Source: Isoetes taiwanensis (taxonomy: Eukaryota; Streptophyta; Lycopodiopsida; Isoetales; Isoetaceae). Taken from it: a stretch of 64,000 nucleotides of DNA. This document shows, piece by piece, positions 19,803 through 64,000 of the stretch; the first letter of the stretch is position 1, and each line of letters opens with the position of its first letter. Location: assembly GCA_021234155.1 (NCBI GenBank), contig JAJEKV010000035.1, positions 2,728,001-2,792,000 of the forward strand. The letters run 5' to 3'. The notes below the pieces were generated by a model. That model saw only the letters and a program-made list of their open reading frames with translations, was not told the DNA's origin and ran no database searches. The position numbers and the translations under genes were made by a program.

Positions 19803-19807
19803 CTCGA

Positions 19808-21359
19808 TGTGATGTTCCACGTATTTATATGCCTTTTTAAGTATAAATACATGACACGCCACTATGAATAATTAATGGCACATTAATTATTCATAAGCTA
19901 AGGTTAGCTATGTTAATCATTAATTATTAAGGTGGAAACCTAATCCTAAACCCTAATTCGAATTTAGGGCTTAACCTAATATTAAAAGGGGTTAAAATAT
20001 TAAATTAGTTAATATTAACCAATCTAGAGTTGCCACCTGGCCCAAATCGATTGGGCAAGGGAGAGTTGCTAACTTGGGACACCCAAAGCCCCAATTCGAA
20101 TTGGGGGAGGTTGGTGAAGGAGCTGTTGTTCAACCCTGTTCCAGCCAGAAGGATGGAGAACTAGAGAGATAGTGGATCTAGCTATGATCCCGGTTAGTAT
20201 GTAGATAGCTTGGATCCCTAGATAGTCATAGGACTAACCCTTATATGCTCAGAAGGTAGATAGGATTAACCATTGTATGAATAGATGTATGGTTCATCTC
20301 TATTTTATGTTCTATTCGAAGCTATGGATAGATGGATGTGTAATGATAGTTCTCTTTCTGTTCCTCTTGTGTTGCATGGGTAAACGGGGGGTAGAGACCT
20401 AAAGGCCATCTAGAAGTAGAGATGTTCCTAGTTAGAACCCTTAAAACCCTGTAAATGCGGCCTGTGCACAAGAGCCAACCTGGCTGTGGATGCTATGATA
20501 TGGTTCAGCATCAAATAACAGACACAATTGGTGAAGTGGCGGTGGAGCCTTGCTGAGCGTGACTAGTGGGGCTCCTACAGTGTGCTAGGCTTATAGTCGG
20601 TCACTGTGTGTGGGCCGGGTATGGGTCTGACGCCTCCTGGATCGCAGGATATGGCCTGTATGGACGTCCTCGGCTTTGCGTAGATTTAGGGGGGTAAGTC
20701 GGGTACGGATACAGGTGCTGCAGGTGTGGCAGGTATCTTCTAGCACACCCATGTAACCGTTGTGATCCGGGAGGGGAAGCTTCTCTGACCTGCCTCATCG
20801 GACCGTTGAGATGTAACCCGGAGTAGTCCCATAGGGTGATTCCTTGGGATTGCGTCTCCGGAGGGCTACAACATAGCATGTTTCAGCCTATCTGCAAAGT
20901 GTGCACAGGAAGGACGGATGGAGTGGACTACCCTAGCCATTGTTCTATGCCAGCCAACGCCATGTTACACCTCTGTCTGATGTTATCTTGAGGCCCTGAT
21001 CGTCAGTCGACCCCATGGAATCTAACCCCAGGGTAGAGCCCTTATTTATGGTGCATTTCCTTTGTTATGTTGGTATTCTATTGTTAGTTGTGTTGATGAT
21101 GATGTGCCACCCTTCGTGGTGGTATATTATTTATTAGTATTGTTGCTAGGTGCTATCATGTATATATGCTTCTGCTATATAGGATTCCCATAGAAGGCGT
21201 GGGACGAATGACACCTCCATGTCCTTCACCCGGACACTTGGCCATCACAAGTGGTCCGAGTCAGACGGAGAGTCTTTCCCTGGTGATGGAGTCGCCATGG
21301 GAGGGGAATTTCCCATATTTATATGATGGGAGCATCGTATAGATTCGGGGAGCGTCACA
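19808..21359 (+). mobile_element. LTR2 retrotransposon, 5' LTR (1552 bp)
   Basis: TGTGATGTTCCACG at 19808 to GGGAGCGTCACA at 21359, with TG..CA ends. It is repeated at 22923-24181 plus 10399-11382. Just after it lies GTGATAGCAGAGCCATG, a slightly altered initiator-Met tRNA primer site. The LTR includes palindromes such as CCCCAATTCGAATTGGGG (20091-20108) and is otherwise non-coding. Parts (GTGCACACTTTGCAGA, TCCATCCG, ATATAGC/GGAAGCG) recur in the LTR at 63530-64000, so the two families are related. Confidence 0.85.
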
Positions 21360-21360
21360 G

Positions 21361-21376
21361 TGATAGCAGAGCCATG
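21361..21376 (+). promoter_or_regulatory. LTR2 primer-binding site
   Basis: TGATAGCAGAGCCATG, starting two bases after the LTR, resembles the complement of the initiator Met-tRNA 3' end (TGGTATCAGAGC..) with two differences. It fixes the element's orientation as plus in the present window. Confidence 0.6.
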
Positions 21377-22922
21377 ATTTTGGTAGACCAGATCATAGCA
21401 CTGGCCATATTCTAACTCGTTAGTTCGATAGTTAGTAGGGAACATTAAGCTAGGATAAACTATTCCAATTCCATAGCTCGTATGTATCTTGACCTAGTTA
21501 TGGAAGGATTAACCTAGTTAGGAATTAATGTGTGAGTCCTTAGAATCGAGTATGTTAAGTTTTTTGAGAAAAAGAGGTCCCTTGTTTCCATGGGCCATAA
21601 CTTTCTTTAGGTAACTCGGATTGAGGCAATTTTTGTGCCAATGCGTCGAGCGCACGGTCCAATTACCTTAGGGGAGTCGACACCTGGCCTCGAAATGGCA
21701 GCAACTGGGTCCAAACCCTAATCGGATGCCGCTATACTTTCAGCGCCTTAGAATTTGAAAATAAAGTCGTATAAATTCAGCGGCGCCCACGTATAAAAAT
21801 GCGTATCTCTGCCATATAAAAAAAAATTCATATTTTTTTCTATAAACATGATTCTTTGTCCCCTCAACCCAAATTGGGCTTATATCGATGTTCGAGCCCT
21901 GTATATTCTAACTTACACCTCCATGTAACCCATGTCATTCACTTCTGCCTGATCCGGGTATGGATCATGTGGGATAGTCTTAGGTGTCTATGCAAGCCAC
22001 ATTCGAACTTCTAGCAGGTAACCTATCCTGGAATTTTACTATTGTACTATTCAACCCCATCACCTTGAGCTTATTCTATGGGCTGTCTACAACATCATAC
22101 CCTAGCATGCAACAGATTGACGGTTGTTTGCATATTTCGAACATATCTCCAGACCCTTCATCGGTAACTTTGGAGTACACTCGTCTTTCTCTCCCCGTGT
22201 CACCACTTAGATTACCTCTCCAAGATGTTTATTGTATGTGTACATAATATGCACATAATAAACATATATCTTCATCCCACAATGCTAGAGCTCTGCTCCA
22301 ACTTAGCTGAACTGTAACTTGGTAGTTTGTTCAAACAAAATCTATTGCCTATGTACTTTACGATGTGGCTCTGCCACCAATGTCCCAAATGGATAGTAGC
22401 CAACTCTATGTTGGAATTGTATATTCTGCCTACATTTTGATAGGCTCACTAGGTCCTTCAACCATTCCTTTAGTGCCTTATGGTACTTCAGTCCCGTACA
22501 TAAACTATGATTCCCCCACGGAATTATGCCATAATTCCGAAGGCTACTACCCCACATGAGGAGCTTTCTAAAGGCTTCTTTTGCTAAAGATCCTTTGTGC
22601 CCTCAATATCAACCATGCTTAGTCACAATTAACCTACTTTTCTTAAGTTATCATGTGGACTTCAGCTATTGATCAGCTTCAAATGTTGTCGTCTTGTCTC
22701 CCTCATAATGAAACAGACGCATTAAAACCTCTTGGTCTCTTAATGTTTCAATCTTCATTAGTAACTGCCATATGGTTATCCGATTCCTTACCATCATAAG
22801 AGTTTCAAAGTCATAATCTCTAAGGGGTCTATGCCTCAAGGCAATGGATCCTCCAGCTTCTACTTCAGTATCTAGAATTGTATAATCTCACCCCTTCTAC
22901 TCTATACACCTCTATTCTAATA
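21377..22922. mobile_element. LTR2 internal region, non-coding
   Basis: About 1.55 kb between the LTRs contain no gag, protease, RT or integrase motif and no long reading frame. This makes LTR2 a non-autonomous element that must use proteins supplied in trans. No clear polypurine tract is visible before 22923 (CTCTATACACCTCTATTCTAA). Confidence 0.7.
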
Positions 22923-24181
22923 TGTGACGTTCCACGTATTTATATGCCTTTTTAAGTATAAATACATGACACGTCACTATGAATAATTAATGGCACATTA
23001 ATTATTCACAAGCTAAGGTTAACTATGTTAATCATTAATTATTAAGGTGGAAAACTAACCCTAAACCCTAATTCGAATTTAGGGCTTAACTTAATATTAA
23101 AAGGGGTTAAAATATTAAATTAGTTAATATTAACCAATCTAGAGTTGCCACATGGCCCAAATCGATTGGGCAAGGGAGAGTCGCTAACTTGGGACACCCA
23201 AATTGGGGTTTTACACCCCCATTTGCCCCAATTCGAATTGGGGGAGGTTGGTGGAGGAGGAGCTGATGTTCAACCCTGTTCCAGCTAGAAGGATGGAGAA
23301 CTAGAGAGATAGTGGATCTAGCTATGATCCTAGTTAGTACGTAGATAGCTTGGATTCCTAGATAGTCATAGGACCTTGTATGCTCAGACGATAGCTAGGA
23401 TTAACCCTTGTATTGAATAGATGTATGGTTAATCTCTATTTTATGTTCTATTCGAAGCTATGAATAGATGGATGTGTAATGATAGTTCTCTTTCAGTTCC
23501 TCCTGTGTTGTATGAGTAAATGGAGGGTAGAGACCTAAAGGCCATCTAGAAGTAAAGATGTTCCTAGTTAGGACCCTTAAAACCCAGTAAATGCGGCCTG
23601 TGCACAAGAGCCAACCTGGCTGTGGATGTTATGATGTGCTTCAGCACCAAATAACAGACACAATTGGTGAAGTGGGGTTGGAGCCTTACTGAGCGTGGCT
23701 ATTGGGGCTCCTACAGTGTGCTAGGCTTATAGTGGGTCACTGTGTGTGGGCCGGATATGGGTCTGACACCTCCTGGGTCGCAGGATATGGCCTTTATGGA
23801 CGTCCTCGGCTTTGCGTAGATTTAGGGGGGTAAGTTGGGTATGGGTACGGGTGCTGCAGGTGTGACAGGTATCCTCTAGCACACCCATGTAACCGTTGTG
23901 ATCCGAGAGGGGAAGCTTCTTTGACCTGCCTCATCGGACCGGGTAGATGTAACCAGGAGTAGTCCCATATGGTGATTCCTTGGGATTGCGTCTCCGGAGG
24001 GTTACAAGCATGTCATAGCATGTTTCATCCTATTTGCAAAGTGTGCACAGGAGGGGCGGATGGAGTGGACTACCCTAGCCATTGTTCTATGCCAGCCAAC
24101 ACCATGTTATACCTCTGTCTGCTATTATCTTGAGTCCCTGACTGTCAGTCAACCCCATGGAGTCTGAGCCCGAGGTAGAGC
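22923..24181 (+). mobile_element. LTR2 3' LTR, first 1259 bp, interrupted by the chromovirus
   Basis: Starts TGTGACGTTCCACG and follows the 5' LTR at about 95% by eye to GGTAGAGC (24181), where the chromovirus LTR begins. The remaining ~310 bp are at 10399-11382 in inverted orientation. The sum (~1.56 kb) matches the intact 5' LTR. Confidence 0.85.
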
Positions 24182-24881
24182 TGTTACGGCTTAAATGCCG
24201 GCTTGGGGGATCGGCTCCTCAACACGCTTGGACTTAATATTTTCGAATGCTAGAACTTCCTTAAGAGGGAACCTAATTTTATAAACCTTAACGTCAAGGG
24301 GTAGTTTATATTTCATGAACTTTATAAGTTATGGAACTTGTGTCAAAAGTAACTTATGGGTTAAGGGGTAATCTATAAAAGAACCGTGTGTTTTAAATAA
24401 AGTTAATGCATGCGGCTGATAACGGGTCGCGAACATTTCGAAGGAGAAATCGTATTCGAGCAATGAACTCCCGGAATAAGCAGAAAAAGGGCCGGTCTGA
24501 CCCTACAAAAGGCCGAATCCATGGTATAAATGGCTGATTCACAGTTATTCATGCTTATCTACCTTTCTAATAGCTATTTGCACTCTGAAAAGGGAATTCT
24601 GGAAAAAGGTTGATCTCTCCTTATAAATACAACTGCCACTTCTACTCAAAAATACAATTCCGTCTGAGTCCTTGTGAAGCCTTCTGCCTCTGTCTACAGT
24701 CAGGTCTAGCCGAACTTGTCTTTCTACTTTGAGTTCTTGTTTGTAGTTGAGAAAGCAAGATAACGATTTCTTGCTAGGAAACCTGAGCTCGGTTGGGTGC
24801 TTTACAATCTCCTAAAGATTGGAGCGTGAATTCTTTGTGTTTTTCTCTCGTTTTATTGCTGGGTTACTTGCTATTGTATCA
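24182..24881 (+). mobile_element. Chromovirus 5' LTR (700 bp)
   Basis: TGTTACGGCTTAAATGCC..CTATTGTATCA with TG..CA ends. A TATA-like CCTTATAAATACAAC is near 24618. Its partner is the inverted LTR at 11383-12088. The left target flank is AGAGC. Confidence 0.9.
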
Positions 24882-24885
24882 ATTT

Positions 24886-24897
24886 TGGTATCAGAGT
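24886..24897 (+). promoter_or_regulatory. Chromovirus primer-binding site
   Basis: TGGTATCAGAGT, a few bases after the LTR, is complementary to the 3' end of initiator Met-tRNA, the usual primer for plant Ty3 elements. Confidence 0.8.
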
Positions 24898-24899
24898 CT

Positions 24900-29793
<4,894 letters not shown>

Positions 29794-50400: not shown

Positions 50401-50523
50401 GCTTGACGCATTGCATCGGTGACCTCAGCAGGCGCCGGCCTAAAAATGCGAAGCTTGCCTCGGACCAGGCCTGTAGCACCCCCTCGACGACGGACGTCCC
50501 TGACTTGAGTGCTCAAGCCAGAA
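47465..50523 (-). mobile_element. LINE-B, degenerate non-LTR retrotransposon
   Basis: Minus strand, in order: a Pro/Ala-rich N-terminal part (50516-50247); an EEP endonuclease starting MVSWNCRGFPW (50231), with LLGDFNARTG (~49780) and SDHQPLFVHL (~49450); a linker (49236-49040); and RT. RT motifs are LANGKAADLDGMQAELLKW (~48810), VDFAKAFDTVPRDRLW (~48405), LLYADDVNLLAYTPEDM (~48130) and VNLAKTRVLL. A C-terminal YKYLGIEFS with a helical tail ends near 47471. Frameshifts and stops (for example 49167, 48550, 48285) inactivate it. I could not find a poly(A) tail or target duplication, so the ends are approximate. Its RT is closest, within this window, to LINE-A. Confidence 0.85.
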
Positions 50524-50727
50524 GATAAACAGAGGAATGCAAAACTTGCACACTGGATCGCATGCGCTTAGGTTTTGCTGCATGCACGGGTTAGCATTGG
50601 CTATGCGTCCAATAGAAACAGTACGTAGGATTCTACTGTCACAAATTGGTCTGGAGAAGGGGATTATTGAATTGACAAGTTTTATAATATCAAATCGATA
50701 TTTTCTTGGATTCCAAGATGGTGTGTA
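50524..50727. repeat. 204-bp segment, copy 1 of a near-identical pair
   Basis: TAAACAGAGGAATGCAAAAC... to ..GGATTCCAAGATGGT recurs at 57151-57354 with about seven differences, all transitions by eye. Copy 1 abuts the 5' end of LINE-B. It is open on both strands, but I recognise no protein. Confidence 0.85.
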
Positions 50728-50960
50728 GGCCAAAATAATGGAATTGTTCATTGAGGGTCCCCAGAAGGTAAGGATCCAGCATGGGAACGAGATGACACAG
50801 TTGTTGGTCCAGTTTTTGCCGGTGTTGTTTCAAGCAATCCATATTTTTTCGCTCTGCTTCAACTGAATATTAAACATACAATCCATTGCTGATCTAATGT
50901 GAAGGAAAATTCGTAACAAATATATTGAAACCGGCATTATTATTACATGTTGTGAACTAA
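50728..50960. other. Unassigned flank between the 204-bp repeat and LINE-D
   Basis: The flank contains a short open stretch (50738-50868, MELFIEGPQKV.. on plus) without a recognised domain. It could be remnant exon sequence of the locus that LINE-D split. It continues at 56951. Confidence 0.3.
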
Positions 50961-51142
50961 GGTAATCAATCTACAGATTTTTTTTTTTTTTGAAGAACTG
51001 TGTCATCAATATATTAAAAGAATGGTAATGTTACAAAGCAAGTGAGGAGGAAGGAGAACTGCCCCAAAGAGACAGCGATACCTCGACACTCCACAACAAA
51101 CTCACAAAAAAACTGCAACTCTACTGCTGTACAAACCGACCA

Positions 51143-54100
51143 TCACCATCTACAACACCCAAGAAGTCCCGCCAGATGGCAAACTTCCGCTCTACTAATC
51201 CCGGGAACAACAGAAAGCTTTGAAATAGCTTGTACCTGAGTCGAGGAATCAGAGAGGCTGCAGGCTGCTGAATCCCCTGAAAGATCCACAACCGCCGCCG
51301 CTTCCAAATCAACCACACCAACCAAGCCACGCACAGATGCAAGGCTTGCCGGCCAAGCACTAGGATACACATGAAATAGCAACTGCTGGCTAGTCAATCT
51401 CACCTGAAACAGAGCCTTGACCCAATCCCAGGCAGCCTGCAAGTGAGGGCATAAAACCAGACAATGCTCCACAGTCTCACGATGAAGGCCACAACAAGGG
51501 CAAAGAGGGCTCACACCCAGCCTAAACTTACTCACAAGGACATTCACCCTGATACAGCGGTGCACCACCTGCCACAGAAGCATCCTAACCTTTGGTGGGG
51601 GAAGTGAGCTCCATGTCCACGTCCAAACCGAGCGCCATCGAGAACCCGGAAGCTGCAGAGACCACTTGCCTGAAGGGGGCAGAGTGTCATGAATAGCCAA
51701 CACCCGGTAACAAGACCGCACAAAACAAGAAGACACAACATCCGGATGAACCTTCAAAATCTGCACCACCACATCATCCTGAGGGACTATAGGTATGTGT
51801 AGCGGAATACTCAACGCTACTTGTTCCCAGATAACCCGGTCGCTACCCTTCAGGCGAAAGCGAGCTCGAAAGAACACCCACGAAGCTAGCTGGCCACCCC
51901 AATACCAATCCTCCAAGGTGAGCACGACGGCTTCGCCTCCAACGAACAAGGCGTCAGAGCATGCATGGCAGCCAAGGGCAAGTCTTGTGGGGGTAGAGGA
52001 ACCCACAAGAAAGGAGAAGAGTGGTGATAAACTGAGGCATAATCTAGCTGGAAGAGCACACGCACATGATCCCAAGCCCGCAACACCCCCGTGAGAAAAG
52101 GGGATGCATGTGGGAAAGGGGAGACCATATAACGCGATTGCCCGGGCAACTCCACATGCAGGCGGCTTCCCAAACACCACACAATGGCGAAGAGACGCAA
52201 CAACAACAGCCAGTACCAGGAGAAGATGCTCCATCATGCAGCGCTCAAACAAACTTGGAGACCAACACCTTACTATGCGGTGCCAAATCCGGGATGGCCA
52301 AGCCCCCATCCTCCCGGGCGGAGACACTTCCACCAAGCCACTTTAACAACCGCCCCTTCATCATCCCGCCCCACACAAAATTCGAACAATCTTATCCAAA
52401 GCACGTATCTTACCCTCGGGAGCTAACATCGCAGAATCTTTGTATACACATGAGTGCTACAAAATCTTGACTTGGCAACAATGATCCTACCCGCCATGGA
52501 CAACTTGCTACCCTTCCACCAATTGAGGTGTTTTTCGCAAACCCCGCAAAATCTCATCCCACACCCTCCCCATGGAAACATCCCCTCCAAAGGGAATACC
52601 CAACAAATTTTAGTACACACATTACCCGGAAGCACCTTCCAAGGGAATAGAGCCAAACAAGGGGAGGCGGAGTCAACTGGGCCCATAATGCGGAGCATTT
52701 ACCCCAATTCAGAAGAATGCCTGAGGCCAAAGAGAAAGTATCCAGCAAACCCTTCACATTCCGCAAATTCCTATCTGCCACCAAGAAGAGGAAAGTGTCA
52801 TCAGCGAACTGGTTAATAATCTACTGACTACCATCCTGCATCCGAAGCCCATCCACCACCCCCTCCTCCACTTTGCAGCCAAAAAACAAGCAGGGGCGGT
52901 GCCTCGCCACAATCGTAAACAAAAACGGCGCCAAAGGGCACCCCTGACGCACCCCTCTGTCTAAGGAGAAAAAGACGGAGGGTTCACCCTGGCACACCAC
53001 CATAGCCCGTGTTGACCTATGCAGCTTCATGACTGTCTCTGTAAAGCGTGGACCACAGCCCAACGCTAACATCATGGCAGACAAGAACTCCCAACGGACA
53101 CTATCGTAAGCTTTGGCAAAGTCAAGCTTAAGATAGGCAATGCCTTGACCTATTTTCCTGGCCCAATAAAGGCCCTCATAAGCTGCGGCAACATTAGTCA
53201 AAATGTTCCTCCCAGGAACAAACCTAGACTGCACCTTACTAATGGAAGAAGTCAATACCGGCTTCAACTTCTCTGCCAGGGCTTTCGCAATAATCTTGTA
53301 CACAGAGGACAACAAGGATATAGGCCTCCAATCATTAATAGTAGAAGGCTGCTTAACCTTAGGAATCAAGGAAATGCATGCGGTATTCAAGATCCTATCC
53401 ATTTGAGAAGACTGCAGCAACTCAAGATACTGGTAAGCAGACTCACCAGCCCACTCCCAATAAGTCTGAAAGAACTCCACAGGGATGCCATCCAGCCCAG
53501 GACACTTGGCCATGCACATACATGCCTCCGCTAAATCCTCTACGAGAGCTCTCGCTCCAAGCTCTCTCCGGGTGAAGGCAGAATAGATGGCTTAACATCC
53601 CCCAAAATAAGCTCCCTGCATCTCCCGCTCATAGGGAAGAGTCTTGCTTGCTTGAAAAAAAACCCCGAGAAATGAGCATGCACATACCTCTGCAAATCAG
53701 CGGGATCCTCCAAAGTCGGCCATCGAGGCAAAGCAAGGGGCGCCATAGATCTTTGATATCGCCACGCTGCCTAGCTGCTCGAAGAACACCAAACGAACTT
53801 GTGCCCCCCCTCCTTCAACCGAGGTAGGGGCCGCCTTCACAGCGCCTCACGCACTTTAACCTGCTCGAGCAACAATACTGCTGCAACACCTTGCATTCTC
53901 CCCTAATGCCATCGAAGGCTACGCCCGAATCTTCTCCAACTCGATAGAGACTATGCAACTCCTGCTCTTTGCACACGCTGCCTACCAAAGGCGGCAAAAA
54001 CGCTTCAACTGGCCAATGCGGTCACCATACCGGACATACCCGCCGAGGAGATGAAAAGGTATCAAGCCACAGCTCGGCACTGGGCGGGAACACCCGTCCG

Positions 54101-54841
54101 AGAGGGGCGGCGGCAACCGCGACCGGTGGACAAAACACGAGGGTAATGATCGAGAAATGGAGGTAGATAGAATGTTACTCCACGCAAAGAGGGCACACCA
54201 TCCGGTCGCATGGGGAAGCATAGCACCGGTCATGCCTAGCATACACCCACCCGCACCAATCGCCTATTACAATAGGTGAAAGACAAGTCCCCGGGGACCT
54301 CAACCAAGGCCAAATCACGCAACAAAGCGAGACCAGCGATCCCTCTCAAACCCATGCATAACACGGGTTCCGAGAACAGGCGATCTTCTACTGGCTCTAC
54401 CATATTGAAGTCCCCTAACAACAACCAAGCAACCTGCAACCCACCAAGGGCTCGCAACTTATTCCGGATTGTGGCCCATAAAGCACCCTACCGCTGAGAA
54501 GGCTGATTAGGGGCATAAACATTAACAATCCCCCACTCTTGCCCTCCCTCCAACCACTTAATTATTGCCCACCGACCAAACACATGCGAGAGTATGTGAC
54601 CCGCACATCCATCCTCCAAGCAATAAGAGTACCCCACTAGTCCGCCCGGAAGAAGAAGCAATAGAGCCAAACCGCCTATACCAACCATATTTATGAGCAT
54701 GGACATATCACCCTGGACACTTATGCTCTGAATGCAAACAATATCGGCGAACTTGCCGCGAAGTGCCAAAGAAACACGGGCCCTCTTACTACTAGAGGAC
54801 CGCACTCCCCGCACATTCCAACTGAGGATCGACCTATTCAT
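51143..54841 (-). pseudogene. LINE-D ORF2: endonuclease, reverse transcriptase and zf-RVT
   Basis: An EEP endonuclease opens with ILSWNVRGVRSSSSK (54841) and has LLLGDFNMVEP (~54420) and DLSFTYCN. RT motifs are CPGLDGIPVEFF (53510), NTACISLIPKVKQP, DWRPISLLSSVYKIIAK, SRFVPGRNI, LKLDFAKAYDSVRWEFL (53130), GVRQGCPLAPFLF (52960), TAG at 52821-52823 and then QFADDTFLFL. The C-terminal part includes WWSSL-like LDYDY segments and the zinc region CPCCGLHRETVEHCLVLCPHL (51500). There are frameshifts near 54460, 53800 and 52420. It is a typical plant L1-type ORF2, inactive by several lesions. Confidence 0.9.
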
Positions 54842-56600
54842 CCCGGAGGAGAAGTGTCCAGCCCCACATGCCTACCTACCAGGCCATCAGCCCACTCCAC
54901 AGAGTCATCATCTAGAGCCAGAGGATTAATCACAGCAATGTGACCCACAGCCGCTCTACGTGACATTCCACTTTCAACACGTGTTGGAAGTCCCCCAGGC
55001 ACCTCCATAGAGTCATGGGCCACACTAGTCTCTACCTCCAACTGGGCTGCTCCAGCCACCTCATGCTCAGCACATACCGCTACTGGGACATCCCCAGCAA
55101 GATCACCAGCCCCTCCCACAGCCCTGTCCTCAGATCTAGCCACAACCAAATCATCTGAGCCCTCCCCTGAGCCACCACGTTAGCCCCACCATCCAATGGG
55201 CGGCTAGCAGCAAGCCTGCCCCAGTCTCGTCCCACACCACCTCTCCCAACCACACCATCTCTTCCAACTCCACTCACTGCACCACGGAGTCCTCTGCTTG
55301 CTGCCTCAGGAACAGAGGAATCCCGGGCCCCTGCATAAGCACGCGCAACCCCTACCACATCACAAGCACCAGCAGGATCATCAACAGGGTCAGATGGTAG
55401 CACAATAGATGGAAACATCCGCCGGATCTCAGAGCCATTCAAAAGCTTCAATCGGAAAAGAAAGTGCCAGGGACCACTACGCACTGGAAGAGAAGTGGGC
55501 ACAGGCTGCAAAGCAGGCAGAGCAACACAGATCTTGGGGACCTGCACAATAGGATGAGCCAAATATACACCCATGCCATTAGCCATAGAAACCAAGAAAT
55601 CAGGCACCATCAGATCAGGAGGAAGATCCTGAATCTGGAACCAACACGGGATTTTAACCGCTGTCAAAGAACTGGTGGACATTGCCGGAGTATAATACTG
55701 ATACAACACATATGATTCACCCAAAGTATCCACCCTCCGACTAACTAATTGCCGCACAGAAGACTCAGCCTCAAACATGATTATGAAGAAATTATTTGGT
55801 AGGAATTTCAGAGACTGATACCTGGGCAAACCAATCCGCCTCAGATGTCCGGCAAGCCAAGAGCTAAACCTCCTCGTGTCCAATATGTAACCCGTGAAGT
55901 AGCCCAATACCGCAAATGAAACTAGATTCTCAATGGTCTGAACATGCCTGGTATGATCAATATCTATCCATGGAGTCTCTGGAAGAGCTGTCTGCAGGTC
56001 AACATAGTGATGATCCTCCACAAATTTCAGAGCCTCTTGAACACGGGCAGTCCTACACTCCGGAGCCTTGCATTTGATCCAATCTGAAAACCCCGGCCGA
56101 ATGATGCAAGCAACAGTGTCATTGCTCCGCCAGGCCGGGCGCACAGGAGTTGGGGTTGCCGCCCTGGCACCCTGAGAGGTATCCAGGGGCACCCCAGGAG
56201 GCACATCAGCTACATGCACCCTAGAAGAGGGCACATCACTAGCAAGTGATCCCTTCCCAAGCACAGGGGAAGAGGGCATCACAGATCTAGTTTCTAAAGG
56301 GGGCATGCTTGATAGAATCAAGACTGGAGTCTCCAAAACACAATCTATTTAGGTCTCAGAATTATATTGAGAGGAAGAGCAATCCACATACCTCTCAACC
56401 GAAGGGGATTCCAAGAGCTCCCTCATCTCTGCCACCAATTGCATGCCACTTCCTACAGCCCGCGCCTCTTCATGCATGCCGAGACCCGCGCCCTTCCCCT
56501 TTACTGGAGGATTCTTTCTCCTCGCCATCTCCCTTGGCTTCAGCCCCAAGCCATGAGGCTCAATCGATCCCCCATCAGCCTGTCTGGCAGGAGCCATGAC
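54838..56600 (-). pseudogene. LINE-D ORF1, DUF4283-like RNA-binding protein
   Basis: The reading starts around MAPARQADGG or MARRKNPPVKGKG (56520-56600). It meets TAA just upstream of 56336, continues in the same frame to 55080, then shifts frame to end at 54838. The core, ..SWLAGHLRRIGLPRYQSLKFLPNNFFIIMFEAESSVRQ.. and WFQIQDLPPDLMVPDF, resembles the DUF4283 N-terminal domain of plant LINE ORF1 proteins. An Ala/Val/Asp-rich tail follows. It would be an RNA-binding nucleocapsid-like protein. It is inactive here. Confidence 0.65.
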
Positions 56601-56950
56601 ATCCGAACCAGTCCAGAAATCAGCTGTTTGCGGCCATAAGCCACATGCAAAACAGCTGATGCTATACATCTTCGGAAAGAGCTCGGAGCAAGCTTTCCAA
56701 CGAGCCAAGCACGCCGAAATCTGACACCAGATAAGAGAGATATCGCCGATCAAAGTTTTGCCGTCAGAACCCTAGCTCCAGCATCTTTTTCGTCTCTCAT
56801 TTTTTGTTATCATCGGATGACCAACAAGCAATTTTTATGTCATACCACAGTGGTAGCATCTAAGTGGACGTATGATAGGCACACCACACCTCAAAGTGTG
56901 GTGGTTGGGTGTAGCACCGGGACTTCCCGGGAGGTAATCAATCTACAGAT

Positions 56951-57855
56951 ATTGTGAGACTCGAAGTGTAGATATGCAGGATTGAAGGTGCCCTTGGGCT
57001 TTTCAAAGGAAACCTTCTAATTCTAAAAGTTCTTCTACACCACCAACAAAGGTATGATTCATTGCCATGTGTTGATAAGCATTTAAATTCATTTTGTCAT
57101 TCTTCTATGTGCAGGCAATTGAGCTTTTAGTTTAAAATGATTAAGAAGAATTTAAACAGAGGAATGCAAAACTTGCACACTGGATTGCATGTGCTTAGGT
57201 TTTGTTGCATGCACGGGTTAGCATTGGCTATGCGTCCAATAGAAATAGTACGTAGGATTCTACTGTCACAAATTGGTCTGGAGAAGGGGATTGTTGAATT
57301 GACAAGTTTTATAATATCAAATCGATATTTTCTTGGATTCCAAGATGGTTTGCCCCACACTTGGTTTTGTCAACACCTTTTTCTTGCCATGCTATGCAAA
57401 AAGAAAACCATTTTTAATTGCTCCTTCATTTGGACCACTGAATTGTTTGACAGATACGAGTTGCACTTTAGAAGTTCCATGATGATTTTTGAAAGCTTGG
57501 ACCATTGACTCATCACTGATGAGATAGATTCATAGACCAAACTACAAGAAAAAGAAATCAACCAATGGAAACAATTACTCCAAAGATACATATCTCTTAC
57601 ATGTTAGATTACAAATGGATAAAGTGGGCATCACATTCCCTTTGAGCAAGCCCTGACATCAGGCATTTTAAGCTCTTTTTCTGCATGGAACATTTATGCG
57701 CGTCTTCTAATTTGAGAAGTATTATATCGCTACTCATGGAGCATTGTCCTTGCACATGCTTGCACATTTTTCTTGCTGGTGCACATCTAGTGCCATTGCG
57801 CATACAAGGGATGCAAATATTAGGTGTGTAGATGTTTACCTCTGGTCAATGTACC
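56951..57855. other. Locus split by LINE-D; includes copy 2 of the 204-bp repeat
   Basis: 56951-57053 could be exon-like, ending at AG|GTATGATTC. A possible intron ends at TGTGCAG (57116). 57151-57354 is copy 2 of the repeat at 50524. No known domain is visible. From about 57500 to 57855 the sequence is simple and non-coding, and it joins the truncated end of the minus-strand LTR element. Confidence 0.35.
57151..57354. repeat. 204-bp segment, copy 2
   Basis: About 96% identical to 50524-50727, in the same orientation. The flanks differ (..AAGAAGAATT before; TGCCCCACACTTGG after). Confidence 0.85.
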
Positions 57856-59235
57856 TCATTTTTGCTGGTGACACTCACCCTGTACATGTATGTAGTCGCG
57901 GGCTGCCTCGCCGTCGTCGTCAGACAGGGTGTCCCAATCTCCCAACTCCGCTAGCGCTGCACTCATGACGTAGGGGCAGTTGGCTGTCCTATGGCCTGGC
58001 TGGAAGCACCTGAAGCAAAGCTGCTTTTCTATACACTCCTGCCTCTTCTCCTTGGGCATAGCCTGCAAAAAGGATCGTACTGCTTTGGAGTAGTTTGACC
58101 CCTCCTGCTTATCCTTGAAGGACACCTGCTTCTTCTCGTGCTGCTTCCCCTGGTTGCCACCATATGGGGCTCTAGCTGGGCCTGGACTGGCTGCCCTAGG
58201 GCTATAACTCCCTGTTGCCTTGTCTTTGTCCTGATAATACTGTTGCCTCTGTCCGCTATTCTGAGGCCCTGTTCCTTGCAAACTTATTGCCTTGGACTCT
58301 GCTTCTGATATTGTCTTAGGGTTTATTGCCCTTACAAGCTTGCGGATCTCGTCATTCAGCCCCTCAATATAGCTCTCCACTGCATGCTTTTCACCCAACT
58401 TTGGCACATACAGCCTTAGCCTCATGAATTCCTCTGTATATTTCTGGACTGATTTGGTTCCCTGTTGCAATCTATAGAACTGCTGCATCATGCTGGACTT
58501 GTGCTCTCTTGGGACGTAATGGCGCTTGAAGGCTTTAGCAAACTTTCTGAACCTGCAAGCATCCCTGCTCAAGCCATGGGCCTTTGCATACCCTTTCCAC
58601 CAAATGCGTGCTGCTCCTTTCAGGTTAGCTGTTGCCACCCTGCCTTTATCCTTATCCTTCATACCATAAGCGTTGCCATATTCGCTCATCTCATCGAGCC
58701 ACGCCTCTGCCTCCATGCCTGACCTGTTCTCGCCTGAGAATTGCTCGAGCTTTCTGGCCTTCCAAACATTCCCCAAAGCAGAGTCTACCTTCTTCTGGTA
58801 GTCAGAGGCTCTTGTGTCCCTTTGTCGTCCATCTGTGGTGTCCCTCTGTCTTCCATCTGCAGTGTTCCTCTGCCTTCAATCTGTTCGGTCCTGGGCCTGC
58901 TCTTCCTCGGAGTCGGAGTCTGAGTCCGAGCTTGAGTCGGAGGATTCCGAGCTGGAGGACCTCCTTCTCTTGCTCCTCTTCTTGTCCCTTCCCGTTTTCC
59001 GAGCTGATGCTTGAGGCAACTGAGCGTTGCCCACCGAACCCACTCCTGCTTGTGCGGCCAGCAAAGCCTTTATCTGCTCAAGGTCCGTCCTCATCTGTGA
59101 TATTTCCTCTTCTGGGGTAATGGGTCCAAATTCCTCAAACAGGTTCCTTGCCGGGGGTGGCCTGGGCGGACTCTGTTCTTCCATATGGTCTCGGCGTTGT
59201 CGTTCCCCTGAGCCTAGGCCTCTAGCTGCATACAC
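57856..59235 (-). pseudogene. Gag of the histone-fold LTR element
   Basis: On the minus strand the reading begins at 59235 without an ATG, just after TATGCAG, which could be a splice acceptor. It has PPRPPPARNLFEEFGP, a heptad-like EEEISQMRTDLEQIKALLAAQ, and a Lys/Arg- then Ser/Asp/Glu-rich hinge (KKRSKRRRSSSSESSDSSSD). Three 24-bp repeats follow (GRQR-DT-DG, 58800-58880), the first containing TGA (58876). The retrotransposon gag core comes next (FSGENRSGMEAEAWLDEM, ARIWWKGYAK, FRKFAKAFKRHYVPREHKS, YTEEFMRLRLYVP, YIEGLNDEIRKLV), then a zinc knuckle CFRCFQPGHRTANC and a stop at 57856. This is a Ty3-type gag. No protease, RT or integrase follows, so the element is truncated here. Confidence 0.85.
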
Positions 59236-59403: not shown

Positions 59404-60930
59404 CTATTCTTGAAATCGCCGGTAGGACGGGTTGTCTTCAAGGAACTTCTTAACTTGGGCCGTTCCTACCGAACGTCCCAAGTTCCTGAGGACGTCTGCT
59501 GATGAGCCGCCCTGCAAGGCTCTCGCCAACTCTTCCACCCTGCTGTCGGATGTGTAGGCTGCGGTCACCGCCAATCTTGCCTGCCGTCGATGGGGTATGG
59601 CGAAGTCGAAGAGGTCGAGTGCCATTGCTCTCTTGACTAAGACAACATAGTCGACATTTGCCGCTATTCGAGCATGCCTGCCGAAGCCTGAGAGTGCAAT
59701 AAGCATGAACACTCCTTCTTCACCCCGGGGGCTGAATTTGCGGTGTATCACCACTATTCTCCCATCTAGCAGCAGCGGCAGGTAGTACCTCAGTGACCTG
59801 TCATTGTGCGTCGCTGAAGATTCTCCACTTGCTTGGCCTCCAGCTCTATGCCGCCCGGCGTATTCGTCGACCTCTACCTCAGTCAGCTCCTGGTAGTCTG
59901 CAATTGTGGAGTCGACCCGCCTGATGTCGATCCCTGCTCCTCTTGCTGGAGGTGGTGTCGAGGGTCTTGGCATTAAGACGCTCGTGGTCTTGCCACGGAT
60001 CCCCATCTGTTCCTGGAGGGCGAGGAACTCCTCCTCCGTTGGCAGCTCTCGCGCTTCCATCATTTGCCTGATGTTGCTGTAGGCCTGGATGTCGGAAGTT
60101 GCTTCCCCTGTGTAGGTGTCGGCTTCCCTGACTTGAAGCGGAAAGTCCGAGGCTCCCCGGACGATGAAGTCGTCCAAGTCGGACTGCCGTAGTTGGTGGA
60201 GCAGTTCATCCAGTCGGAGCTCCCTCTCCCTGCATTCGGGGAGGTTCTGGATGTCGCTGAGGAGTAGATACTCCTCTCCGTCGATGATGATCGGGGCTAG
60301 GCTTGTGATGCCTAACCCAAGTGGGGGAGCAACTCTGATGTTCTGTCGGCTCCGCTCGAAGTTGACCAGCTCCTCTTCTGCTTGTCGCCGTTCTTCCTCT
60401 GAGTCGAGCTCAGTGTACTCTTCGTCGTCCCACTTCTCTTCTTCTTCTTCTCTTCCTTCTTGTTCTTGCTCGTACTGCAAAAGCATCTGTTCTTCCGCTC
60501 GGGCTGCTATGGGGTCCACCTCCATGGGAGGGATAGAGGTTGCCCCCAAGGGGTTTTCGGCACGGTGGGATAGGAAGATAGCTAGGGCGGCGGTGTAGGA
60601 GAAATACTTGGTCCTGTCGACTGTCAGGACCATGTAACCTGACAGCCTCTATGCCTTATTGGTCAAGTACTTGGCGATGTTCGGGACATCACCCAAGGCT
60701 GCTTGAAGGGATGGGCGGGGAACAAAATATCCTATGCAAGGGGGTAGCTGCACTAGGGAGGGTCCTAGCCTAGCTTGGAATTCTGCTAAGACTTGCCTGT
60801 ATGCTGGGGTTGCATTCAAAGTGGCTTGGACATCTATTTCCTTGCGGAAGACTCGGAAGATGTCATTGACATCGGCCTCGGCAGCATGAGCACTGGCGCT
60901 GTACCATCGCCTGAAGTCAGCAGTGGCCAT
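59404..60930 (-). CDS. Extra ORF of the LTR element: unknown protein with acidic stretch
   Basis: ATG at 60930 starts MATADFRRWYSASAHAAEAD. After 93 codons a single TAG (60649-60651) interrupts. The same frame then stays open to 59404 (RLSGYMVLTVDRTKYFSY.. to ..NPSYRRFQE), about 508 residues in all. A highly acidic segment (about residues 135-175: EEEEEKWDDEEYTELDSEEER) is followed by a mostly hydrophilic middle and a C-terminal part with LRYYLPLLLDGRIVVIHRKF and FMLIALSGFGRHARIAANVDYVVL. I recognise no family. It has its own TATA box at 61045-61052 and two hairpins further up. The acidic region would suit a basic partner such as the neighbouring histone-fold protein. That is inference only. 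Confidence 0.6.
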
Positions 60931-61044: not shown

Positions 61045-61052
61045 TATTTATA
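61045..61052 (-). promoter_or_regulatory. TATA box upstream of the acidic ORF
   Basis: TATAAATA on the minus strand within CTATAAATAGGTCCCCCATTTC, 115 bp before the ATG at 60930. Nearly the same context lies before the histone-fold ORF (62989-62996), so the promoters are duplicates. Confidence 0.65.
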
Positions 61053-61244
61053 GAAAAAGGGGGGAAACCCTAATTTTTGGATGACCTAGAATTTGCTGGG
61101 ATTGGGCAATTCTGATCTATTAAGAGGTGCAATTGAGAGTTTGAAGACTACTTTTTGGGTTTGAGCAGGCTAAGAACAACTAACGACCCTGTTACAACAA
61201 TTTGGAGATCATTTGGATATGGCGTGGTGAAGAAAAGCTGAGAG

Positions 61245-61502
61245 GTCTCACACGTTGCGTCCAGACCGATAATGAAAAGTTCATTTTCTGCCCTGGCGCG
61301 ACGTGTGAGACATGGGCTCTAAATGGGCTAAACTTGATCAATTCAGGTGATCTAAGGGTCTAATCCTACTGGACTGGTCGAGATAGGCAGAATTGACCCC
61401 TTATTTGGAGCTGTTTTGGGCATTTTTGGGGCATGGTCTCACACGTTGCGCCCAGCCCGAAAATGAAAAGTTCATTTTCTGTCCTGGCGCGACGTGTGAG
61501 AC
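61245..61502. repeat. Two ~67-bp imperfect hairpins upstream of the acidic ORF
   Basis: Copies lie at 61245-61311 and 61436-61502. Each runs GTCTCACACGTTGCG.CCAG .. CTGGCGCGACGTGTGAGAC. The outer arms pair with one or two bulges, and the centre (AATGAAAAGTTCATT) is itself palindromic. Two more copies are at 63074-63140 and 63276-63340. They lie upstream (minus-strand sense) of the TATA box at 61045. Confidence 0.9.
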
Positions 61503-61646
61503 ATCGTCTCAATTTTGCTCAAAATGTCCAATTTAACTAAAACAAAAGCCAGAATTCAATATCTTAACCTAATTGAACAAGATTAAGCACATTATTTACT
61601 CAAAAATTCTTTATATTAACAAAAATTTCCATTATTTACAAAAGGT

Positions 61647-62891
61647 TTAAGGGCGTTCTCCCTTTATGTGGCTAGCAAGATACATGTCTTGCCTCATAAG
61701 TGTGACCCTCTTCGCGTGAACTGTGCAGGCCGTCGAATCTTCAAAATACTGCACTATTTTCCGCTCTGTTGCCTCCTGTAAGCACAGCAACATCTCGTCG
61801 GTCACCCTCATGTCTGTGTTGTATTCTTGCATAATTTCTCGGACTAGGCGTTGGAACGGTGCGCGGGGGATCAAACGTCCGTAGCTTCGCTGGAAGTGCC
61901 GGATTTCCCTGAGAGCTCTATTCTCCAACTTCTTCCTGCCGGTCCGCTTCTTTCCTGATGCTCGGGGAGGCTTGGGCTTCGGTGGTGGCGGCTTCAGGGT
62001 CTGGCTCTTTGTCGGGTGTCCGCCTTCAATTGTTCTCACCCTGTGCTCCTAGTAGTAAGCGTTGTATGCCTCCCACTTCGCCATGTAGGCATTATGCTCC
62101 CTGATCTTCTTCTGATAGACCTTGACGGGGTCTATCACGTACGCCTCCCGTTGTGGTCGCGGGGCTTTAACCCTATCCCACGTCGGAAAAGGTGGGGGCT
62201 TCGGCGCTGCCATTTCGCTCTTCCTCGGGTGCCACACCTTTCGGGGTACTTCCTTCTCCACGACCGGGGGTTTCGAAGAGCTTGCCCCCTCAGTCTTGGG
62301 GACGTAATCCTCGTCCGAGTCGTCGGTAGAAGGCGGGGTCTGCTCGCCTGATGGCTCATTGATGACGGGACCCGCCGCTCGCTTACCAACCTTCACAACT
62401 GTTCTCTTGCCCGCCTTAATGCCTTTGGCCCTCTTCCTCTTCGGCTCGCCGGCTATGGTTGGCTCGTCCTCCCGTCTCTTTGTCCTCTTCTCTCGTGGCT
62501 CTTTGGCTTCATGCTTGCGATGAGCGCCGCGAGGTCTTCTTCGCCAGGCTAAGCTTCGCTGCCAGCTTGCTCGTCCCTCTCCTCGGCTTCTGCAGGCAGG
62601 GCCCAAGCTTGAGTTGTTCCTCGGACTTTCGGCTGTCCCCAAGCCCCGATTCCTCCCATCTCCTCCTTTCCTCCTCGGCGATTTCTTGAGGATCGGTGCA
62701 TTACATCCATTTGCTCCTCCCTATGACCTCGTGTCGTAAGCTCTGTTCGAGTGTGCCTCCTCCTTTGGATGAAGATTAGCCTTCTTGCCGGAAAAGGCGT
62801 TCTGGAGTATCCTCCGAATCGTGGGGGTCACCGGCTTATTTGGAAGATTAAACCCTTGAGGGGCTTCCCCGGTCTGCTTGAAGCGGGCCAT
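61647..62891 (-). CDS. Histone H3-fold fusion protein encoded in an LTR retrotransposon
   Basis: ATG at 62891 opens MARFKQTGEAPQG; canonical H3 begins MARTKQTARKS. The frame runs 415 codons to 61647, interrupted only by TAG at 62721-62723 and at 62049-62051. The middle is basic and Pro-rich (KRTKRREDEP, KRKRAKGIKAGKR, then PPPKPKPPRASGKKRTGRKK). The last 91 residues (61650-61922) are an H3 histone fold: ALREIRHFQRS (alpha-N), APFQRLVREIMQEYNTDMR (alpha-1), LLCLQEATERKIVQYFED (alpha-2), CTVHAKRVTLMRQDMYLASHIKGER (alpha-3). Loop 1 has canonical H3 length, not the longer one of CENH3. The H3 Cys110 and His113 equivalents are kept. It lies between the primer-binding site and gag of a minus-strand LTR element, with its own TATA box. 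It would place H3-like material in chromatin if made. A host H3-derived gene captured by the element is the likely origin. Confidence 0.85.
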
Positions 62892-62988: not shown

Positions 62989-62996
62989 TATTTATA
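62989..62996 (-). promoter_or_regulatory. TATA box upstream of the histone-fold ORF
   Basis: TATAAATA on the minus strand in CCCCTATAAATAGATCTAG, followed by CCCCCCATTTCCGCG, 98 bp before the ATG at 62891. The spacing and context mirror the TATA box at 61045. Confidence 0.65.
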
Positions 62997-63073
62997 GGGG
63001 TCGATTTTAGGTCAAACTTCAAACTATTTTTTTGGGTCATCTGGAACACCTAGAACACCTAAATTCAAGCATG

Positions 63074-63340
63074 GTCTCACACGTTGCGCCCAGCCCGATA
63101 ATGAAAAGTTCATTTTCTGTCCTGGCGCGACGTGTGAGACATGGTGGGTCCCGCTACTAAATTTTGTACTTTTTAAACATGTAACATGCCAATTCTACTA
63201 CTTCTTAGCTTAATTTTAGAATTATCAAGTTATTTTTCTGTGATTTATAACTTTTTAGTGTGTTTCAAGCTGAATGTCTCACACGTTGCGCCCAGCCCGA
63301 AAATGAGATTCTCATTATCTGTCCTGGCGCGACGTGTGAG
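63074..63340. repeat. Two ~67-bp imperfect hairpins upstream of the histone-fold ORF
   Basis: Copies are at 63074-63140 and 63276-63340, about 200 bp apart, like the pair at 61245-61502. The second copy has a changed centre, AATGAG.ATT.CTCATT in place of AATGAA.AAG.TTCATT. Both arms changed together, so pairing is kept. Confidence 0.9.
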
Positions 63341-63516: not shown

Positions 63517-63528
63517 GCTCCGATACCA
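63517..63528 (-). promoter_or_regulatory. Primer-binding site of the histone-fold LTR element
   Basis: The minus strand reads TGGTATCGGAGC, one base after the LTR end (..GACGTCACA). This is the initiator-Met tRNA complement with a single change. It shows that the LTR at 63530-64000 is a 5' LTR for a minus-strand element running leftward through the two extra ORFs and gag. Confidence 0.8.
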
Positions 63529-63529
63529 C

Positions 63530-64000
63530 TGTGACGTCCCCTACTCGTATACGGTGCACTCACCGTATACAAACAGGAGTTCATCCCCCATACCAACTCC
63601 ATGCCGATACAGGGCCCTCCACATGACACTGCAACCGTGACGGGTTCCAGTGGGAAGAGTGAAGGGGTCATTTCACCCCGTCTCCCTCAGGGCCTACCTA
63701 GCTGCGGAAGCGTAAACATACATGTCAGTATACAAGAGCATCACATATCCACCTCTAGGGTGGTACATCACATCTGCATAGACAATGATCAGCACAATGC
63801 ATATGGGAAATCCTACCCAAGGCTCAGACTCAAAGGGACGACTGACGGCTTGGGTCTCCAGAGTTCTTTGCAGACAGAATCATGGCAATGGATTGGGCTG
63901 GCATAAGAACATGGCATTGGGTTGTCCACTCCATCCGCCCCTCCTGTGCACACTTTGCAGAGTAGGTTGAAAAGTGTTGGGACCTGACTGCAGCCCGCCG
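63530..64000 (-). mobile_element. 5' LTR (partial, runs off the window) of the histone-fold element
   Basis: On the plus strand it starts TGTGACGTCCCC, the complement of an LTR end ..GGGGACGTCACA. It shares pieces with the LTR2 LTR: a GCGGAAGCG motif, TCCACTCCATCCG, and TGTGCACACTTTGCAGA near 63940-63962. It is cut by the window end, so its length and start are unknown. Confidence 0.75.

Follow-up and report, generated by a model that had tools for sequence, protein, structure and literature searches.

An abundant LTR retrotransposon of Isoetes taiwanensis carries a captured histone H3 that appears to be maintained by selection

An LTR retrotransposon that has captured a histone H3 gene is very abundant in the genome of Isoetes taiwanensis, and the modified H3 copy of this element appears to be kept functional by natural selection. 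The findings suggest that the element may use its own H3 to steer the packaging, marking or targeting of its own DNA. The stretch of DNA analysed, called the window here, comprises 64,000 nt (assembly GCA_021234155.1, contig JAJEKV010000035.1, positions 2,728,001-2,792,000 of the forward strand) and belongs to a 1.658-Gb assembly of 1110 contigs.

A preliminary description had placed an H3 fold in an ORF between a tRNA-Met primer site and a Ty3-type gag on the same strand. The order of these parts is as described, but the ORF contains two TAG codons and is not intact, and a second ORF (ORF2) intervenes before gag. Along the minus strand, the LTR end CGTCACA is followed by a single G, the primer site, two palindromes, a TATAAAT box, the H3 ORF, two further palindromes, another TATAAAT box, ORF2 and gag. 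The features are:

63530-64000, minus strand: 3' part of the 5' LTR, ending in CGTCACA, identified by reading the sequence and from sibling elements with TGTGACG...CGTCACA termini
63517-63528, minus strand: primer binding site TGGTATCGGAGC, with one mismatch; the exact TGGTATCAGAGC lies right behind the LTR in four of six sibling elements
63276-63340, no strand assigned: palindrome copy 1, a hairpin-forming repeat of about 68 nt
63073-63144, no strand assigned: palindrome copy 2, a hairpin-forming repeat of about 68 nt
62990-62996, minus strand: TATAAAT box 5' of the H3 ORF; W1025, a sibling, likewise has TATAAATA ahead of the ORF, as do 9 of 14 N-terminal stretches
61647-62891, minus strand: H3 ORF, 414 codons plus stop, with TAG at 62721-62723 and 62049-62051
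62871-62891, minus strand: decayed N-terminal H3 tail MARFKQT, where siblings mostly have MARTKQT
61650-61916, minus strand: histone H3 fold of 89 aa, from Pfam, solved-structure, residue and AF2/Foldseek comparisons
61435-61504, no strand assigned: palindrome copy 3, a hairpin-forming repeat of about 68 nt
61244-61313, no strand assigned: palindrome copy 4, a hairpin-forming repeat of about 68 nt
61046-61052, minus strand: TATAAAT box 5' of ORF2, with a core promoter and 5' UTR like those of the H3 ORF
59404-60930, minus strand: ORF2, 508 codons plus stop, between the H3 ORF and gag, with TAG at 60649-60651
57857-59184, minus strand: Ty3-type gag with an acidic N-terminal part, Retrotrans_gag, Ty3_capsid and a weak CCHC knuckle; TGA at 58876-58878
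50520-57349, minus strand: LINE-bearing stretch with a 203-bp direct repeat at its bounds, downstream of gag where pol is expected

The 5' LTR extends past the end of the window, with 471 bases inside, and has a counterpart 3' of the H3 ORF in sibling W1025 (89.7% identity over 448 bp). No 3' LTR of the element was found within the 64-kb window, which shows one LTR end of this copy. The primer site is of a type that we take to be tRNA-iMet; for matches with one mismatch, 0.28 are expected per window and three were found. Since the H3 ORF, ORF2 and gag are each broken by in-frame stops, the window copy is dead. Within 62509-62827 other frames are partly open too, so a frameshift in this segment is possible.

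The palindromes occur in the window at the H3 element only and form strong predicted hairpins, with z between -5.1 and -8.5 across five folds. Their arms read ACGTGTG. In the window, the H3 ORF and ORF2 are each preceded by two, and W1025 has three, one before the H3 ORF and two before ORF2, together with TATAAATA ahead of both ORFs. The core motif is mostly missing from the scanned stretch of six other elements. The palindromes could be regulatory sites or hairpins. The core promoter and 5' UTR of the H3 ORF resemble those of ORF2: the local alignment score was 62.5 against 48.5 for the best of 500 shuffles, and with a second, very low-gap setting one of 500 shuffles reached the observed score. 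For the spacers between palindromes and the stretches behind the two ORFs, local alignment gave a likeness no better than chance.

A Ty3 pol was not found for the window copy, which is truncated. On the minus strand between 57899 and 38200, domain scans picked up reverse transcriptase (RT) only next to LINE-type domains (DUF4283, zf-RVT, endonuclease); protease, RNase H and integrase were not detected. The repeats at 50520-50722 and 57147-57349 are 96.6% identical over 203 bp, which is unusually long for a target-site duplication (TSD), and the stretch between them carries DUF4283, RT and zf-RVT domains. A search of plasmids with gag (tblastn) gave nothing useful. Elsewhere in the window, LTR-like sequences lie at 19807-21390 and 22922-24181, the second of which starts with TGTGACGTTCCACGT, as does the LTR of E928, an element that bears H3. 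Near 21350, an LTR-type end has a primer-like site behind it; these sequences probably represent another relative. A plus-strand Ty3 element at 24787-29449 has a gag-like frame, protease, RT, RNase H, integrase and SH3_Tf2-1.

The assignment of the fold to H3 is firm. The stop-free tail of the ORF (62048-61647) matched the Pfam Histone family (PF00125) with 95.2 bits and E 4.4e-27, against a curated cut-off of 26.4, and the best matches among solved chains were H3, with E values down to 1.3e-27. The H3 similarity that had been proposed from the letters alone is thus found at its place on the minus strand and scores far above chance. The window fold is 53% identical (47/89) to a canonical H3 fold, without indels. 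Of 40 sites that show no variation among 39 other H3 proteins, selected from 241 fetched sequences, 32 are retained. When the same canonical sequence was evolved neutrally to equal divergence in 2000 runs, a mean of 21 and a maximum of 29 of the 40 sites were kept, and 11% of the runs were likewise stop-free. Chance similarity to H3 is ruled out by the Pfam and solved-H3 scores together with this simulation.

Structure prediction agreed in part. The AF2 monomer of the H3 part is a weak model (mean pLDDT 58.6 from a 40-row alignment) in which the H3 helix order is present, with helices at what we take to be the positions of alphaN, alpha1, alpha2 and alpha3. Foldseek returned 493 PDB matches; judging by their titles, the 50 listed all concern chromatin, and their TM-scores are modest (about 0.4-0.6) and their rmsd large. 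Centromeric H3 (CENH3) has a longer loop 1. The window fold has no loop 1 insertion relative to the 39 H3 rows, and its position beside an Arabidopsis CENH3 sequence in the tree has a support of 55/0, with two long branches meeting; a CENH3 origin is therefore not favoured for the subfamily of the window copy. Scans of viral contigs with ORF2, the H3 tail and three alignments gave no confirmed relative.

The genome was searched with the PF00125 profile, the window H3 region and a 60-residue N-terminus, giving 8705, 10,351 and 1310 first-look candidates, respectively, numbers that are not copy counts; the best 150 of each were scored, and these lists hold the best-scoring copies, biased to intact ones. 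All 150 profile matches were above the cut-off. They comprise 15 canonical H3 genes and 135 others, which begin at profile positions 4-25 and have open frames of up to 494 aa. The best 150 matches to the window H3 region are the window's own and 149 others at 84-93% identity, and 139 of the 150 are stop-free inside.

The DNA was examined for 10 of the 135 non-canonical matches, namely L016-L020 and six long loci (E101, E908, E928, E1018, E1034 and E1047; E101 is L018), the latter hand-picked for long frames. At all six of these opened loci the H3 ORF is flanked by direct repeats of about 1.5-1.7 kb that are 90-97% identical. The repeats begin with TGTGACG, end with CGTCACA wherever the end was located, and a purine tract lies just ahead of the downstream LTR start in sibling elements. 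Behind the 5' LTR, the primer site is exact in four loci and degenerate in two. Exact 5-bp TSDs bound five of the elements: GCAAC (E101, 11,963 bp), GTGGC (E908, 13,231 bp), AACTC (E928, 13,268 bp), AAAGT (E1034, 13,134 bp) and CCATT (E1047, 16,724 bp). A TSD pattern search at E1018 found none.

The order in five of the six loci is LTR, H3 ORF, ORF2-like frames, gag, pol-like frames and LTR, with pol-like frames judged by eye except in E908, the one locus of the six scanned with Pfam. E101 is rearranged, with an extra LTR copy inside, and gag was matched in the other five loci. The capture of an H3 gene by an LTR retrotransposon, which the preliminary description had proposed, is borne out by these further LTR-flanked copies. 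H3 ORFs standing free of LTR and gag sequence, the pattern that would speak against capture, were not encountered at the opened loci, and a nested or single-copy host gene is ruled out by the many copies, LTR pairs and TSDs. A second H3-like piece lies upstream of the 5' LTR of E928 (locus coordinates 2375-2500; 69% identity over 42 residues) and might be left over from a different H3 element that E928 had entered.

The opened loci fall into two subfamilies, M (E928, E1018 and E1034) and P (E101, E1047 and E908), distinct from subfamily W of the window copy. Pol of E908 contains RVP_2, RVT_1, RNase H, H2C2, rve, SH3_Tf2-1 and Chromo; rve scored 28.3 bits, under its cut-off of 32.6, and Chromo 28.3 bits, over its cut-off of 25.1. 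In subfamily W, we examined the region (L077) downstream of an N-terminus at C907:35852393, which has an open frame of 493. From 3.5 kb downstream of this N-terminus, beyond a 3.3-kb gap in the sequence compared, follow an ORF2 end (95% over 22 residues) and a gag that is 95.6% identical to that of the window over 319 columns. The pol of L077, in broken frames, has protease, RT, RNase H, H2C2, SH3_Tf2-1 and Chromo (36.5 bits, E 4.6e-9), with rve not among the listed matches, and beyond it lie a purine tract and an LTR start.

Because the pol downstream of this W copy ends in Chromo, subfamily W is a chromovirus as well. The Tat/Ogre lineage had been mentioned initially as an example of plant Ty3 elements with extra ORFs. 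The gag, protease, RT, RNase H, integrase parts and chromodomain of the W relative instead identify the H3-bearing elements as chromoviruses, an assignment made by the presence of the chromodomain rather than by an RT tree. Pol with a chromodomain was thus recovered in both E908 and L077. W1025 (L061), the one W copy whose whole H3 ORF was read unbroken (437 residues), still has remnants of ORF2 and, about 5.6 kb past the H3 stop, an LTR end; gag and pol were undetected in it, and no 5' LTR was matched in the stretch examined.

ORF2 would be a second conserved extra protein of the H3 elements. A homologue, P0121, is 46% identical over 97% of the query. ORF2 of the window aligns with that of E908 (24% over 358 columns, E 1e-8) and with E101 (22%, E 8e-6), and had no match in the compared pieces of E1047, E1034 and E928. 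Pfam and NCBIfam gave no known domain for ORF2, and its AF2 model had a pLDDT of 35.

In subfamily W, about 300 aa lie between tail and fold, and the full protein has roughly 440 aa. Among 14 sibling N-termini, hand-picked from the best 150 matches to the window H3 region and mostly from long frames, all begin with MAR, 13 with MARTK and 11 with MARTKQT or its one-letter variant, and 8 have ARTKQTARK; the N-terminal H3 tail is retained in most of these sampled copies. Position 9 is lysine in 12 of the 14, and in every one of these a proline takes the place of S10. An earlier idea that K9 and K27 are lost in all copies was dropped in view of these 12 N-termini. Since siblings read MARTKQTARK, MARFKQT of the window very probably represents the start of an H3 tail in subfamily W. 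Subfamily P begins with MPRFKLT and subfamily M with MET or MEE; neither has an ARTKQTARK start, and both have a shortened tail-like stretch directly before the fold.

Purifying selection on the H3 fold is well supported. Using the Nei-Gojobori method on the 89-codon fold, with pairs of dS outside 0.02-1.5 dropped, we obtained a dN/dS of 0.041 for subfamily W (20 of 21 sequences, 171/190 pairs, median dS 0.73), a value from copies hand-picked from the best 150, mostly with long frames, and such samples of intact, high-scoring copies lower dN. L059 was left out because the fold pattern was not found in it. The 44 codons preceding the W fold gave 0.113, with L058 omitted for its length. Subfamily P gave 0.046 from three sequences, the subfamily M folds showed no protein change at a median dS of 0.03, and host canonical H3 gave 0.006 (32/105 pairs). 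Copies that are far apart at silent sites are still 84-93% identical in protein, which points to a need for constraint.

R52, R69, R72, R83, C110, H113, K115, R116, D123, L126 and I130 are kept in all 20 W folds and T118 in 19; we take these to be pairing and DNA-contact residues, with C110, H113, D123 and L126 presumably at the H3-H3' interface. On the other hand, R63P, K79N, K122Q and a change of S86/S87 to D/E, giving an acidic pair at 86-87, are found in all 20 folds, R49K in 19 and K56R in 14. Identity to the host H3 fold is 88% for M, 84% for P and 57% (54-58%) for W.

In a phylogeny with host H3, with rows chosen from the 241 fetched proteins, M and P form one clade (96/91) that is placed, with weak support (87/49), beside a host H3 and an Arabidopsis lyrata H3, and W is a separate long branch (100/100). 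A single origin of W, M and P was not rejected (AU p 0.11), and kinship of W with a group of multi-copy extended H3 proteins (P0032/P0024) had p 0.54. This group and one more comprise long proteins of 227-654 aa that end in an H3 fold (P0081, P0074, P0082 and P0107; and P0032, P0042, P0024, P0037, P0040 and P0041), one cluster representing 75 member sequences. Repeats may have captured H3 in these cases too, perhaps in the manner of the fungal example considered below.

These data bear on what the H3 might do for the element. A chromovirus, i.e., a Ty3 LTR retrotransposon with an integrase chromodomain, has taken up a plant H3 gene, which became the C-terminal part of a protein of about 440 aa encoded just behind the primer site and before ORF2, gag and pol. 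We infer that the captured H3 could pair with host H4 and join nucleosomes or tetramers on newly made or newly integrated element DNA, and that the resulting chromatin state would favour the element, whether by packing its DNA, by letting it escape silencing or by making it recognisable to the element's integrase. The constraint on the fold, the intact pairing surfaces and the free tail in W make us lean toward this reading, in which the protein still acts as an H3 and serves the element's own chromatin, with H4 pairing, deposition and benefit as its putative steps. H3 modifications largely control retrotransposons, and an own, selected H3 could be a direct counter-move; as the advantage to the element, protection from H3-based silencing would be our first choice and self-recognition through the chromodomain the boldest. 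The roughly 300 aa between tail and fold, and the lack of an ARTKQTARK start in M and P, speak against a nucleosomal role. So do the low confidence of the AF2 monomer, the lowering of dN by hand-picked samples rich in long frames, and the failure to detect gag or pol in W1025. Furthermore, host chaperones may fail to load the W protein, since it is 57% identical to host H3 and carries R63P, K79N, K122Q, the acidic S86/S87 replacements, R49K and K56R.

It is less likely that the H3 domain binds element RNA or cDNA in gag particles, where it would compact or shield it or import it into the nucleus without host-type nucleosomes. The H3 ORF and gag do reside in one element, the long insert of W1025 is by eye rich in charged residues, and giant viruses have DNA-packing histones. 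However, retention of C110, H113, D123 and L126 in all 20 folds goes beyond the needs of a simple basic packing protein, and the TATA box and 5' UTR of the H3 ORF suggest production separate from gag.

The retained tail also allows for a decoy, in which a free ARTKQTARK-like N-terminus poses as an H3 tail. Host K4/K9 writers and readers would be tied up by it or would modify it, the element would thereby evade silencing, and the fold would only hold the N-terminus near chromatin. The frequencies of MARTK and of K9 with its following proline in subfamily W agree with this explanation, which we nevertheless consider unlikely, as the fold is more constrained than the 44 codons ahead of it and subfamilies M and P manage without such an N-terminus.

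Rather improbable is integration targeting, with methylated element H3 being read by the integrase chromodomain so that new copies are steered to element-holding chromatin. Chromo is present at the pol end of both E908 and L077, and Group I chromodomains, which are prevalent in elements of non-seed plants, are reported to bind H3K9me (PMC12786077), but the chromodomain could simply read host H3.

That the gene is an inert passenger or a chance nested insertion can practically be dismissed: the window copy is broken in three ORFs and the copies compared are among the best-scoring, but the low dN/dS at a median dS of 0.73, the recurrence of one gene order across several elements that have LTRs and TSDs, and the 32 of 40 invariant sites against a neutral maximum of 29 all contradict it.

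A bolder extension of the favoured nucleosomal reading is a self-contained chromatin system, in which the element encodes both a histone, an H3 with a tail of its own, and a histone reader, the integrase chromodomain, deposits the histone on its own DNA with host H4, and in this way shields its copies from host silencing and recognises them as landing sites. We regard this as a doubtful proposition; if true, the retrotransposon would carry its own epigenetic identity.

Compared with known systems, the element resembles plant chromoviruses in its TG...CA LTRs, tRNA-iMet-type primer site, polypurine tract, gag, protease, RT, RNase H, integrase, SH3_Tf2-1 and Chromo, and differs in having two more ORFs between primer site and gag, of which the first terminates in an H3 fold. 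Mobile genomes with their own core histones also exist among DNA viruses: the giant viruses Marseilleviridae and Medusavirus encode viral histones and bracovirus encodes H4, whereas here an LTR retrotransposon is concerned and H3 alone was seen. Additional ORFs are known in plant LTR elements (PMC7264820, PMC11963269, PMC12786077). Those of Tat/Ogre and Retand are likewise found in plant Ty3 elements but of another lineage, and the term "histone" does not occur in the main texts of the respective reports (PMC7264820, PMC11963269).

The closest plant precedent in the sources consulted is in Phalaenopsis orchids, where Gypsy elements captured a 2-ODD domain (AlkB-like m6A demethylase) (PMC9289625). 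As in Isoetes, a plant Ty3 element stably holds a host-like domain in an additional ORF, and the domain is proposed to matter for host control, but it is an RNA demethylase and not a histone. The same work reports a screen of 121 angiosperm genomes with 15 uncommon domains, and a histone is absent from those discussed in its section 12 (PMC9289625).

An H3-like gene in a mobile element is already on record. The reference genome of the fungus Pyrenophora tritici-repentis contains 10 long and 16 short, highly similar copies of a hAT DNA transposon with the H3-like gene H3L (PMC3538342). In both systems, a mobile element encodes an H3-like protein in addition to its own genes and an extra ORF of unknown function, and the fungal case was also detected via an excess of PF00125. 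The hAT element is a DNA transposon with terminal inverted repeats, whereas the Isoetes element is a plant LTR retrotransposon that, unlike the fungal one, has diverged subfamilies, measurable selection, a long N-terminal extension and a chromodomain. In a limited literature search, no retrotransposon with a core histone came up, and such an element is apparently unreported. The large family in one genome offers many natural variants of an H3 whose tail and fold are separated by about 300 extra residues. With this element it becomes testable if mobile elements can supply nucleosome parts of their own making, a question that is also raised for the fungal hAT element, whose authors too ask if the captured H3 alters chromatin (PMC3538342).
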